Origin: Luteibacter flocculans
Lineage (GTDB): Bacteria; Pseudomonadota; Gammaproteobacteria; Xanthomonadales; Rhodanobacteraceae
Direction of reading: 5' to 3'
Assembly (NCBI RefSeq): GCF_023612255.1
Contig: NZ_CP063231.1
Coordinates: 4,210,501 to 4,274,500 of the forward strand
Length of the DNA stretch: 64,000 bases
Positions 862 to 10,380 of the stretch are shown one piece after another. The position numbers were made by a program, and so were the translations under genes. Each line of letters starts with the position of its first letter. Position 1 is the first letter of the stretch. The notes under the pieces are model-generated. The model did not search any database. It saw only the letters and a program-made list of their open reading frames with translations, and had not been told where the DNA came from.

Positions 862-2544
862 ATGACGAACAAGCACGACGACGACACCTTCGATGCCGGC
901 AGGCGACGCCTGCTCGGCGGCATGGCAACCACCGGTGCGGTACTGGCACTGGGCGGCCTTTCCGAAGGCGCAACGGGCACGGAACATCCACCCCTACCCG
1001 CGCCCAAGGGCGAAGCGCTGGATGCACTTCTCGAAAAGCATATCCAGCACGTCGTTGTGGTGTATGCCGAGAACCGCAGCTTCAACAACCTGTTCGGCGA
1101 ATTCCCTGGCCTGCAGCAGCCATTGAGCGCGGTACCCGTGGAACGCTTGATCCAGCGCGATCGCGACGGCACGCCGTTCAAGACGCTGCCGCCGATCTGG
1201 GGAGGCATGGTGCCTCACGAGCAAGTGGTGGATCACAAAACCTACAAGATCGGCGAGAAGGACATCGTGGGTCTTCCGAATGCACCATGGGCGTTGCATA
1301 CGGGCGACGGCACGCCGCTGCCCCACGGTGTCGTTACACGCGATCTCGTCCATGCGTTCTACAACAACCAGCTGCAGATCAACGGCGGCAAGAACGACGG
1401 CTTCGTCGCCTGGGGCGACAATGGCGCGCTTACCATGGGCTACTACGCCAGCGCGCCGGTGCACCTGCGCCTATGGCGCCTCGCCGAACAGTTTACGCTT
1501 TGCGACAACTTCTTCATGGGCGCCTTTGGCGGCTCCTTTCTCAATCACCAGTACCTCGTGGCGGCGCAACCGCCTTTCTATCCGAATGCAGACAAGAGCC
1601 CCGCGCAGTTCAATATCGCGGTGACCGAGAGCGGCGAACCCACGGACCATCGCCTGAAGATGGCGGACGAGTCCCCGAAGAGTGCGATGGACGGCAAGCC
1701 GAAGTTCGCGCACCACAACACGCTCACGCCGGATTTCTGGGCAGTCAACACGATCGGGCCGCCCTACTCGCCCGGCTTCAATGTCGACAGGAAGAACCCG
1801 CTGCTGGCCGATGCGAGCAGCCCGAACACCCTGCCGCCGCAGGCGCACAAGCACATCGGCGATATGCTTTCCGCAAAGCAGGTCGATTGGGCATGGTACG
1901 GCGGCGGTTTCCAGGCTGCGCTCGATGGCAAGGGTGATGGCGACGACGGCAGCTTCCCGCAGACGCCCAACTTCCAGCCACACCATCAGCCGCTCAACTA
2001 TTTCGTTTCGCTGGCGCCCGGTAGCGAAGCACGCAAGCGTCATCTGCGCGACGGCGGCGTGGGTGAGACCGCGGCGACCAATCATTTCCTCGCCGACGTC
2101 GCGGCCGGGAAGCTGCCGCCGGTCACGTTCTATAAGCCGCAGGGCGATCTCAACATGCATGCCGGCTACTCCGACGTGGAGGCGGGCGATCGCCACATCG
2201 CGAACGTGGTGCATGCGCTGCGCACGAGCCCGCTGTGGAAGCACATGCTGGTGATCGTCACTTTCGATGAGAACGGTGGCTGGTGGGATCACGTGGCACC
2301 GCCGAAGGGCGATCGCTGGGGTCCGGGCACGCGCATCCCCGCGCTGGTGATCTCACCGTTTGCGAAGAAGGGTCACGTGGAGCACACGATCTACGACACG
2401 GGCTCCATCGCGCGCTTCATAACGCGACGATTCAAGCTGGAAAAACTGCCGGGTCTGAAAGTCCGCGAGGACGCCATGGTGGCGGCGGGCGGACCGGCGC
2501 CCGGCGATCTGACTGAAACGCTCGACTTCTCGGGCAGGGCCTGA
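862..2544 (+). CDS. Tat-exported phosphoesterase of the PLC/AcpA family
   Basis: A 560-residue protein of the phosphoesterase family (PF04185) that covers phospholipase C and AcpA-type acid phosphatases. Residues 14-16 are RRR followed by a hydrophobic stretch, a Tat-type signal. The metal/nucleophile region ENRSFNNLFG lies at residues 70-79, in the place of the AcpA metal-binding Glu-Asn. Further family blocks are NMHAGYSDVEAGDRH and TFDENGGWWDHVAPP toward the C-terminus. It probably hydrolyses phosphomonoesters or phospholipids in the periplasm or outside the cell; the substrate cannot be read from the sequence. A distant paralogue with a Sec signal lies at 60657-62693. The 207 bp upstream (655-861) show no gene. 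Confidence 0.88.
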   Translation: MTNKHDDDTFDAGRRRLLGGMATTGAVLALGGLSEGATGTEHPPLPAPKGEALDALLEKHIQHVVVVYAENRSFNNLFGEFPGLQQPLSAVPVERLIQRDRDGTPFKTLPPIWGGMVPHEQVVDHKTYKIGEKDIVGLPNAPWALHTGDGTPLPHGVVTRDLVHAFYNNQLQINGGKNDGFVAWGDNGALTMGYYASAPVHLRLWRLAEQFTLCDNFFMGAFGGSFLNHQYLVAAQPPFYPNADKSPAQFNIAVTESGEPTDHRLKMADESPKSAMDGKPKFAHHNTLTPDFWAVNTIGPPYSPGFNVDRKNPLLADASSPNTLPPQAHKHIGDMLSAKQVDWAWYGGGFQAALDGKGDGDDGSFPQTPNFQPHHQPLNYFVSLAPGSEARKRHLRDGGVGETAATNHFLADVAAGKLPPVTFYKPQGDLNMHAGYSDVEAGDRHIANVVHALRTSPLWKHMLVIVTFDENGGWWDHVAPPKGDRWGPGTRIPALVISPFAKKGHVEHTIYDTGSIARFITRRFKLEKLPGLKVREDAMVAAGGPAPGDLTETLDFSGRA

Positions 2545-2557
2545 CGCTGCTGCTACA

Positions 2558-3232
2558 CCGGCACCCTGCCCGCTGCCGCGGGATCGCCAGCAGGCTGGCT
2601 CCCACCCTGGACAGGCATCCCAACCGAGATCATGGCTCCGCCAGACGGATGGCTGCCGACGACGGTGGCCCGCTGCGTCCGGCACCCTGCCCGCTGCCGC
2701 GGGATCGCCAGCAGGCTGGCTCCCACCCTGGACAGGCATCCCAACCGAGATCATGGCTCCGCCAGACGGATGGCTGCCGACGACGGTGACCCGCTGTATC
2801 CGGCACCCTGCCCGCTGCCGCGGGATCGCCAGCAGGCTGGCTCCCATCCTGGACAGGCGTCCCAACCGAGATCATGGCTCCGCCTGGGCGGATGACTGCC
2901 GACGACGGTGACCCGCTGCGTCCGGCACCCTGCCCGCTGCCGCGGGATCGCCAGCAGGCTGGCTCCCACCCTGGGACAGGCATCCCAACCGAGATCATGG
3001 CTCCGCCTGACGGATGGCTGCCGACGACGGTGGCCCGCTGCATCCGGCACCCTGCCCGCTGCCGCGGGATCGCCAGCAGGCTGGCTCCCACCCTGGACAG
3101 GCATCCCAACCGAGATCATGGCTCCGCCTCGTCGGATGACTGCCGACGACGGTGGCCCGCTACACCGGCATCCGCCTGCCGCGGAGCCGGCCAGCCTCCC
3201 ATGCCGCGGTGGGAGCCAGCCTGCTGGCGATA
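2558..3232. repeat. Array of five ~121-bp tandem repeats with REP palindrome
   Basis: Five near-identical units start at 2558, 2679, 2800, 2922 and 3044 (periods 121, 121, 122, 122), followed by a diverged partial sixth from 3165. Each unit carries the palindrome GCCAGCAGGCTGGC (first copy 2586-2599) next to a CCGCGGG block. The array ends with an inverted copy of the REP core, GGGAGCCAGCCTGCTGGCGAT, at 3211-3231. The array fills the space between the convergent phosphoesterase and MFS genes. Short open frames across it repeat the same peptide with each unit and are not credible genes. It is probably a REP/BIME-type element; the transposase (RAYT) that would mobilise it is not in this window. 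Confidence 0.9.
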
Positions 3233-3242
3233 GAGGCTTGCC

Positions 3243-4793
3243 TCAGTGCGCTGGCGTGCCGCCCGAGGCGAAGGGCGGCTTTGCGAACCACACGGCCACC
3301 ATTGCCAGGCCGAACATCAAACCGAAGATCCAGAAGACGTCGTTCACGGCGAGCGTCGCGGCCTGCAGGTCCACGATGCGATTGAGCGCCGCGTTCAAGG
3401 TCGGTCCCTGCACGCCGAACGACTGGAAGCGCTCCACATATTCGCTCGTCGCGCGGCTGCCTTGGCTCACATTCTCCGCCAGCACGGCGTGGTGGTAGGT
3501 GGTGCGATGCGAATACAGCGTCGTACTGACCGCCGTTGCGATACTTCCCGCCAGTGTGCGGAAGAAGTTCGACAAACCCGACGCACTCGCGACCTGGTCG
3601 TCGGGCAGCCCGGACAAGATGATCTGGTTCACCGGAACGAAGAACAGCGCAACGCCCGCGCCCATGCATAACCGCGGCAGAGCGAGTTCACCGTAGGGCG
3701 CCAGCGTGCTCAAGGTCGACATGTAGAACGACGCGCCTGCAAAGATGGCGAAGCCGATCGTGTTCAACAGACGCAGGTCGAACTTGCTCTGGAATGCACC
3801 GACGAGCGGCGACAGCACAATGGCGAGCAAGCCGATCGGCGCGACGACAAAGCCCGCCCAGGTCGCGGTATAGCCGAGCACTTCCTGCACCCACATCGGC
3901 ATCACCACCGTGCCGCCGAAGAATGCAAACATGCCCAGCGACAGGCAGAGCACACCGATGAAAAAGTTGCGCCGACCCAACAGTCGCAATTCCACCACCG
4001 GGTTCTTGTGCATCAGCTCCCAGGCTATCAGGAAGGTGAGGCAGACCACCGCGACGATCGCCAGCACCACGATGGTGTTGGATGTGAACCAATCCTTGTC
4101 GTTGCCGTTGTCGAGCATGAACTGCAGGCATCCTACGCCGATGGCGAGTAGCCCCAGGCCCACCGCGTCGATCGGCATCTTTGCCGTCTTCGATTCACGG
4201 TCACGCAGCAAGACATACGTGATGATCAGTGCGAAGGCGCCGACGGGAATGTTGATGAAGAAGATCCACGACCAGTGATAGTTGTCGGTAATCCAGCCGC
4301 CGAGGATGGGACCGAACACGGGCGCCACCACAACGGTCATCGCCCATAGCGCGAGCGCAATGGGTCGCTTCGCTACGGGGTAGTTATTGAGCAGCAGGGT
4401 CTGCGACAGCGGCACCATCGGACCGGACACCGCACCTTGGCAGAGGCGGAAGACGATGAGCATCGTCATGCTCTGCGACAGTCCGCACAGCGCCGAAAAG
4501 ATCACGAACAACATCACCGAGACGGAGAACGTGCGCACCTCGCCGAAGCGTCGCGCGATCCATCCCGTCAGTGGCTGCATCACGGCGCTCGCCATGGAAT
4601 AGGCACTGATCGCCATGGTGCCTTCGTTGCTGCTCACGCCGAGGTTGCCGGCGATGGTACGCACCGAAACGTTGACGATGGAGATGTCCAGCACCTCCAT
4701 GAAGGTGGCCAGCGCTACACCGGCGGTAAGCAGCGCCAGCGCACCACCTTTCAGCGGCGGCTTGCCCTGCGCCGGCGCGTTTCCCTCCGCCAT
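3243..4793 (-). CDS. emrB: DHA2-family MFS drug exporter (EmrB/QacA type)
   Basis: A 516-residue inner-membrane transporter with about 14 hydrophobic segments, the topology of the DHA2 (14-TM) drug:H+ antiporters. The first helix carries the family signature DVLDISIVNVSV (catalytic-type acidic residue in TM1). Motif A follows as GWIARRFGEVRTF. It is the last gene of a three-gene leftward operon (outer-membrane factor, HlyD adaptor, permease), starting 3 bp after the adaptor stop codon. The set forms a complete tripartite EmrAB-TolC-like pump for hydrophobic toxicants. The exported substrate is not predictable. The gene ends right beside the 121-bp repeat array. Confidence 0.92.
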   Translation of the reverse strand: MAEGNAPAQGKPPLKGGALALLTAGVALATFMEVLDISIVNVSVRTIAGNLGVSSNEGTMAISAYSMASAVMQPLTGWIARRFGEVRTFSVSVMLFVIFSALCGLSQSMTMLIVFRLCQGAVSGPMVPLSQTLLLNNYPVAKRPIALALWAMTVVVAPVFGPILGGWITDNYHWSWIFFINIPVGAFALIITYVLLRDRESKTAKMPIDAVGLGLLAIGVGCLQFMLDNGNDKDWFTSNTIVVLAIVAVVCLTFLIAWELMHKNPVVELRLLGRRNFFIGVLCLSLGMFAFFGGTVVMPMWVQEVLGYTATWAGFVVAPIGLLAIVLSPLVGAFQSKFDLRLLNTIGFAIFAGASFYMSTLSTLAPYGELALPRLCMGAGVALFFVPVNQIILSGLPDDQVASASGLSNFFRTLAGSIATAVSTTLYSHRTTYHHAVLAENVSQGSRATSEYVERFQSFGVQGPTLNAALNRIVDLQAATLAVNDVFWIFGLMFGLAMVAVWFAKPPFASGGTPAH

Positions 4794-10166: not shown

Positions 10167-10380
10167 TGGGAGCTTACTGGTGGGAGCCAGCTTACTGGTG
10201 GGAGCCAGCCTGCTGGCGATGGGTACTTGCCTCACGGCTACACCGCTTCGTTGGCTTATCGCCAGCAGGCTGGCTCCCACCTCTCCTAAATGGGCCCCAC
10301 CCATTCCTAAATGGGCCCCACCTCTTCTAAATGGGCCCCACCTCTCCTTATGGCTCCCAGCTCTTCTTATGGCCCCCAAC
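10167..10380. repeat. REP inverted pair with flanking short tandem repeats
   Basis: The 21-bp core GGGAGCCAGCCTGCTGGCGAT (10200-10220) and its exact reverse complement (10258-10278) are separated by 37 bp, a BIME-like arrangement matching the core in the array near 2.6-3.2 kb. On the left side, an 18-bp unit containing CTTACTGGTGGGAGC is repeated from 10168. On the right, CTAAATGGGCCCCACC is repeated with starts at 10286, 10307 and 10327 (period 20-21), then decays into two variants up to 10380. No gene is present between the regulator stop (10158) and the hydrolase stop (10388). Confidence 0.88.

Follow-up and report, generated by a model that had tools for sequence, protein, structure and literature searches.

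A five-unit tandem REP array between convergent genes of Luteibacter flocculans, probably duplicated in place within a RAYT-REP system

The gap between two convergent genes of Luteibacter flocculans is filled by five direct repeats of about 121 bp. We consider it probable (roughly 0.8) that these repeats are tandem REPs of the genome's own RAYT-REP system, which were duplicated in place and have persisted past both stop codons. The array, located in a stretch of 64,000 nucleotides that was analysed as a whole (the window; coordinates in Table 1), most likely arose in this lineage through local tandem duplication.

The array had been described in an earlier note as five copies of about 121 bp with a REP palindrome, and two repeat-finding methods agree with this description. 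Tandem Repeats Finder reports window 2558–3170 as a tandem repeat with a period of 121, 5.0 copies, 94% matches and a score of 1091. The second method defines a direct repeat family with starts at 2558, 2679, 2800, 2922 and 3044, which are spaced by 121, 121, 122 and 122 bp. The self-identity of the array stretch at a lag of 121 is 0.61, whereas 200 mononucleotide shuffles reach at most 0.38. The five units (121–123 bp, window 2558–3166) each contain one REP palindrome, ATCGCCAGCAGGCTGGCTCCCACC, on the minus strand. They read GTGGGAG-CCAGCcTGCTGG-CGA, with the GT(A/G)G tetranucleotide of REPs at one end, except that unit 3 has ATGG. Each REP of the array has a second hairpin, CCCGC-TGCC-GCGGG, on its tail side, and the identical string is found inside the REPINs of relatives. 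A scan for REPs of all classes revealed no inner inverted REP in the array units. With one REP per unit, the array lacks the two inverted REPs with outward-facing heads that define a REPIN, and has instead the form of a tandem REP array, in which even head-to-tail units include flanking DNA (Bertels and Rainey 2011).

Any two units differ at 3 to 9 positions, with 0 to 3 of these differences within the first 87 alignment columns and the remainder at the right end. The previous description of the units as nearly identical over their full length is thus accurate for the first two thirds, while the last third is looser. As the divergence between units is uneven, the age of the duplication is uncertain. 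Tandem duplication as the source of the array, which had also been proposed, is supported. Two other types of repeat were considered and ruled out: a coding array, as the period of 121 cannot be divided by three and the ORFs spanning the array are mechanical, and a CRISPR-like array, as the spacers are copies of each other.

The gap is bounded by the stop codon ending at 2544 on the left and by that ending at 3243, on the minus strand, on the right. The array starts 13 bp past the left stop codon and its closing inverted REP ends 11 bp short of the right one. The flanking genes encode an acid phosphatase and an EmrB-type efflux protein, and the array fills the space between them. The gene positions bear out the convergent arrangement stated in the earlier note. 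The REP core said to be common to the array and a site at 10.2 kb is also real, the latter site being an ordinary REPIN. Short tandem repeats of 18 bp (10171–10209, made of REP head sequence) and 20 bp (10276–10348) adjoin this REPIN, as if the ends of REPs were the places where small duplications begin.

Table 1. Features of the array, its flanking genes and a second REP site, in window coordinates.
Feature	Position	Strand	Length	Details
Acid phosphatase (phosphoesterase family), left flank	862..2544	+		NCBIfam TIGR03397, 757 bits (cut-off 362.75); Pfam PF04185
Unit 1	2558..2678		121 bp	REP 2583-2606, - strand
Unit 2	2679..2799		121 bp	REP 2704-2727, - strand
Unit 3	2800..2921		122 bp	REP 2825-2846, - strand; last base of 22-nt core altered
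Unit 4	2922..3043		122 bp	REP 2947-2970, - strand
Unit 5	3044..3166		about 123 bp	REP 3069-3092, - strand
Degenerate start of sixth unit, broken REP	about 3159..3200			3159-3173 matches 2552-2566 at 93%
Inverted REP closing the array, head side	3208..3231	+	24 nt	inverted copy
DHA2-family (EmrB-type) efflux permease, right flank	3243..4793	-		NCBIfam TIGR00711, 492.7 bits (cut-off 230.2)
REPIN of the same REP class, another convergent gap	10198..10280			two REPs, heads outward

The genome consists of one contig of 4.30 Mb. With up to two mismatches allowed, the REP core matches it at 354 places, against 0 for the reversed control; the exact 22-nt core is present in 232 copies. REPs are expected in many copies outside genes, and all three REP sites of a 67.5-kb stretch (the window plus L139, with crude gene calls) are intergenic. 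One RAYT gene was found, at C1:543296–543568, with a Pfam Y1_Tnp match and a match to the NCBIfam equivalog NF047646, "REP-associated tyrosine transposase" (138.8 bits, cut-off 80). Five REPs of exactly the array's class come after this gene, three of which are spaced by 118–119 bp. A search for a RAYT, suggested in the earlier note, has thus led to a cognate RAYT flanked by its own REP, and a role of the RAYT in the formation of the array is suggested by this association only. The note had also reasoned that an absence of further copies would argue against an active element. Further copies of the REP are abundant, whereas no further copy of the unit's spacer was seen. Among the genomic matches to the array that were listed, there is no second long one except for a match of 68% at L138, with a spacer that by eye is unlike that of the window array. 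On these matches, the unit spacer is peculiar to the locus of the array.

One family of REPIN spacers in this genome (G000) comprises 108 counted elements. Among the 100 of these that were listed, the arms belong to at least four REP classes, often with two classes in one element, and include the class found beside the RAYT in G015 and G021. Mixed REPINs of G000:C1 have, for example, CCAGCCTGCTGG as the left arm and CCACC, CCGCC or CCGCT stems on the right arm, and both arms of the REPIN at G000:C1 919491–919573 belong to the class of G015 and G021. The RAYT tree and the permease tree conflict as to which genomes are closest to this one (G002 and G006 versus G005 and G015), so the RAYT may have a history other than that of its host.

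To compare the gap between species, we used 17 loci in other genomes with a close ortholog of the permease, 15 of which have the phosphatase adjoining. The gap in these 15 relatives, taken from the end of one protein match to the end of the other, is 25–174 bp long, compared to 705 bp here. The five-unit array is present in none of them (0/15, one genome per species). An equal unit number in all relatives, which would have spoken against a variable element in the earlier note, is therefore not observed between species. Inspection by eye of the 15 gaps revealed neither the array spacer nor a single-unit ancestor, and one near-match to the array's REP core is found in the gap of L015. By eye, every gap except those of L023, L025 and L026 contains REP-like palindromes (12 of 15), and almost all of these belong to other classes. 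The exact 22-nt core occurs in 2 of the 23 genomes of the genus, namely this one and G019 (258 copies), while a Y1 transposase match is present in 22 of the 23, with REPs beside these genes that vary by species. The only RAYT found in G019 (locus L153) adjoins another REP class, GTAGGAGCCGCTATAGCGGC, despite the abundance of the array's core in that genome; G019 may have lost or switched the RAYT for its abundant REP class.

Similar arrays are found elsewhere in the genome. In the window and 20 stretches chosen for holding REP clusters, at least eight direct arrays, each with a minimum of three REPs, were counted, including that of the window. Their unit lengths range from 41 to 122 bp and their copy numbers from 3 to 12. 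The repeats are spaced by 121–122 bp in the window, 120–122 bp in L138, 118–119 bp in L122, 95–96 bp in L130, 52–54 bp in L137, 52 bp in L133, 47 bp in L127 and 41–43 bp in L121. The spacers are specific to each locus, which fits each array having grown in place. Arrays of entire REPINs are also present, as in L120, L124 and L134. Exact direct REP pairs with 70–100 bp between the REPs number 26 and those with 12–42 bp number 19, counts that take in pairs inside REPIN arrays as well as pairs in which an intervening copy is passed over. The earlier note's statement that long tandem arrays of REPs are less common overstates the case here, given these arrays and others described in Pseudomonas fluorescens SBW25. 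Repeats of other types lie close to REPs as well. At L136, a 17-bp repeat with 9.5 copies that contains GGTGGGA (1137–1300) and a degenerate 16-bp repeat that contains TCCCACC (1341–1530) are located on opposite sides of the same REPIN, and at L122 about 35 copies of a CCCAGC-like hexamer (1230–1428) lie between two opposite-strand REPs.

We suggest that the array started from a piece of a REPIN, consisting of one REP and the tail-side hairpin, in the convergent gap. Replication slippage or unequal recombination would then have multiplied a 121-bp segment with the REP and neighbouring DNA into five head-to-tail copies, which may have been partly homogenised. RAYT nicking at REPs may have started the duplication, by analogy with TnpAREP, which according to a passage of PMC8266576 cuts next to REPs and leaves a 3'-OH able to prime replication. 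The array would have persisted because it is located past both stop codons and interrupts nothing. In E. coli, a tandem cluster is reported to have lost five of its six REPINs (PMC8049555).

It is also conceivable, though unlikely, that each unit was added through RAYT-driven copying rather than through ordinary recombination or slippage. The 3'-OH left by TnpAREP beside REPs is a possible primer for such copying (PMC8266576), which would also be in line with the inverted REP seen on the head side of every clean direct array (below). However, tandem repeats without a full REP adjoin REPs too, at 10276–10348 and at L136 1137–1300, so ordinary slippage may suffice, and inverted REPs are not confined to the head side, as L137 has an additional one of another class on the tail side and L143 in G013 has one on the tail side only. 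An assembly artefact is very improbable: misassembly is possible for such repeats, but the genome is a single contig, the units differ mutually, and similar arrays with other spacers exist at other loci.

We regard it as quite unlikely that the array is a selected regulatory element, either as a block to transcriptional read-through or as a gyrase or IHF site strengthened by the number of units. Such a role would agree with an array that fills a convergent gap and with the location of 18 of 24 REP entries from five genomes in convergent gaps. By analogy, it could also draw on E. coli, where BIMEs reportedly attenuate transcription and BIME-2 is said to be cleaved by gyrase. BIME-1 elements contain an IHF site between REPs; no match to WATCAANNNNTTR, which we take to be the IHF consensus, was detected at 0–1 mismatch in 2558–3232, and the array thus neither conforms to BIME-1 nor supports the IHF site proposed previously. 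No intrinsic terminator, promoter or, at 0–1 mismatch, IHF site was found in 2300–3500, no known RNA family in Rfam matches this region at E up to 1, and the folding energies of five stretches are not unusual relative to shuffles (z between −0.8 and +0.5). For the transcription block proposed in the earlier note, an intrinsic terminator is unsupported; a Rho-dependent or attenuation effect, like gyrase binding, would be hypothetical. In addition, the 15 relatives have the short gaps described above, three of them without a visible REP-like palindrome. The functions suggested for the array are unsupported, and it probably has no specific one.

Two patterns are less expected: an inverted REP on the head side of the direct arrays examined, and the frequent presence, in the matching gaps of relatives, of REPs of the relative's own class. 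In a scan for REPs of the array's class, 12 direct arrays (9 in this genome and 3 in G019) have an inverted REP on the head side in 10 cases (8 of 9 here, 2 of 3 in G019) and on the tail side in none. A scan for any class showed that the two arrays that lack it, L120 and L262, have inverted REPs from other classes inside them, L120 being a REPIN array with mixed arms. In the clean direct arrays (8 here and 2 in G019), the head-side inverted REP is present in 10 of 10, and a tail-side one as well in 1 of 10 (L137), figures for which L120 and L262 were excluded after their result was known and the three G019 arrays were picked, not blindly, from a listing that displayed strands. A generic scan of other fetched loci detected the tail-side inverted REP of L143, which belongs to another REP class, and the head-side polarity is thus not a general rule. 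We have met no account of such polarity in the REP and RAYT literature consulted on other points. At the array sites of L138 and L130, G019 has by eye a single head-to-head REP pair, which is likely the starting state before array expansion.

The second pattern was explored with 22 REP sites of this genome and four relatives (G020, G021, G005 and G019), which gave 78 orthologous stretches. Both flanks aligned in 59 of these, and the gap contains a REP-like palindrome in 35 of the 59 (without matched control gaps): 11/16 in G020, 11/14 in G021, 8/16 in G005 and 5/13 in G019. The 30 palindromes in G020, G021 and G005 belong to other classes, as these genomes have no exact copy of the array's core. 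In the 67.5-kb comparison, REPs are present in the array gap of all five genomes and in the 10.2-kb gap of four. All three REP sites of this genome in that stretch are in convergent gaps, which represent 8 of its 50 gaps there, and REPs are held by 22 of 250 gap-genome pairs overall and 16 of 40 in convergent gaps. These counts leave out five REP sites in inserted or unalignable stretches (two in G020, one in G019, two in G021), use a G021 interval that was shortened by hand at the first gap, where the right-hand gene is absent, and include two G019 entries that are fused palindromes rather than spaced pairs. Given the preference of REPs for convergent gaps, repeated insertion accounts for much of the sharing of sites, and is part of the reason why relatives often have REPs of their own class at shared gaps. 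The sharing of sites is accordingly weaker as an argument for inheritance.

Starting from the acid phosphatase stop codon, this genome and G020 align without gaps over 48 nt, of which 43 are identical, as far as the REP, where the stem begins to differ. The string GCTACACCGGCA(C/T)CCTGCCCGCTGCCGCGGGATC, common to both gaps, was considered as a site-specific flank and rejected, since nearly the same string is found inside other G020 REPINs and thus represents REPIN spacer. The argument for a class change in place then depends on the equal distance from the stop codon, and is weaker. At L130, a "- +" pair is visible by eye at a similar position in each of G000, G019 and G021, with stems of two kinds. 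The G020 REPIN at this site has the opposite orientation by eye, which favours independent insertion there. At the right flank of L130 and in its orthologs L174, L194 and L234, several species have REPs that adjoin the right-hand gene's stop codon directly or overlap it; by eye, the TAG stop of G020 seems to come from the GTAG head.

A tentative reading, which we think possible and would not yet favour, is that Luteibacter REP sites are inherited for longer than their REP sequences, that a class switch overwrites the arms in place, arm by arm, and that head-to-head pairs seed one-way tandem arrays. The G020 alignment, the stems at L130, the mixed-class arms, the palindromes in 35 of 59 gaps and the consistent head-side inverted REPs are all compatible with it. 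Successive amplification of altered master copies would give the class picture as well as overwriting in place. Class changes at orthologous RAYT genes have been termed orthoswitches in a section of PMC3686654.

The array itself is ordinary, and its value is that of a member of a set. A genome in which one RAYT was detected carries REPs of a single class by the hundred and no fewer than eight direct arrays that differ in their spacers, and related species have REPs of other classes in the corresponding gaps. This set lends itself to two questions, whether local REP amplification is caused by RAYT enzymes and how an entire REP population switches class. The array loci could serve as typing markers if the unit number varies within the species. 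The parts worth following are the array polarity, the class turnover at shared gaps and the palindrome differences among species.

Compared to known systems, the array is similar to E. coli BIME-2 in being an intergenic array of REPs; BIME-2 can gain and lose copies, and the array here may do so as well. In BIME-2, two REP types alternate in opposite orientations. Here, unlike BIME-2, the units have one REP each in a single orientation, with five minus-strand REPs following consecutively and no alternation. The REP is identical to GTGGGAGCCAGCCTGCTGGCGAT, the class PF15 of Nunvar et al. 2013 (PMC3686654), which is listed there for Pseudomonas sp. GM41; Luteibacter is apparently not one of the bacteria covered by that paper. 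Tandemly repeated REP and REPIN clusters, the latter with repeated flanking DNA, are described for Pseudomonas fluorescens SBW25 in part of PMC3116915. Regular tandem units, repeated flanks, clusters beside RAYT genes and several arrays per genome are common to that account and to the array and genome studied here. In the REP arrays of SBW25, either REPs of two groups take turns at distances of 112 and 72 bp or GI REPs follow at even spacing (PMC3116915), whereas those described here have one REP class, locus-specific spacers, units of 41 to 122 bp and one head-side inverted REP. The array is thus of a known kind, REP arrays with repeated flanks having already been described in P. fluorescens.
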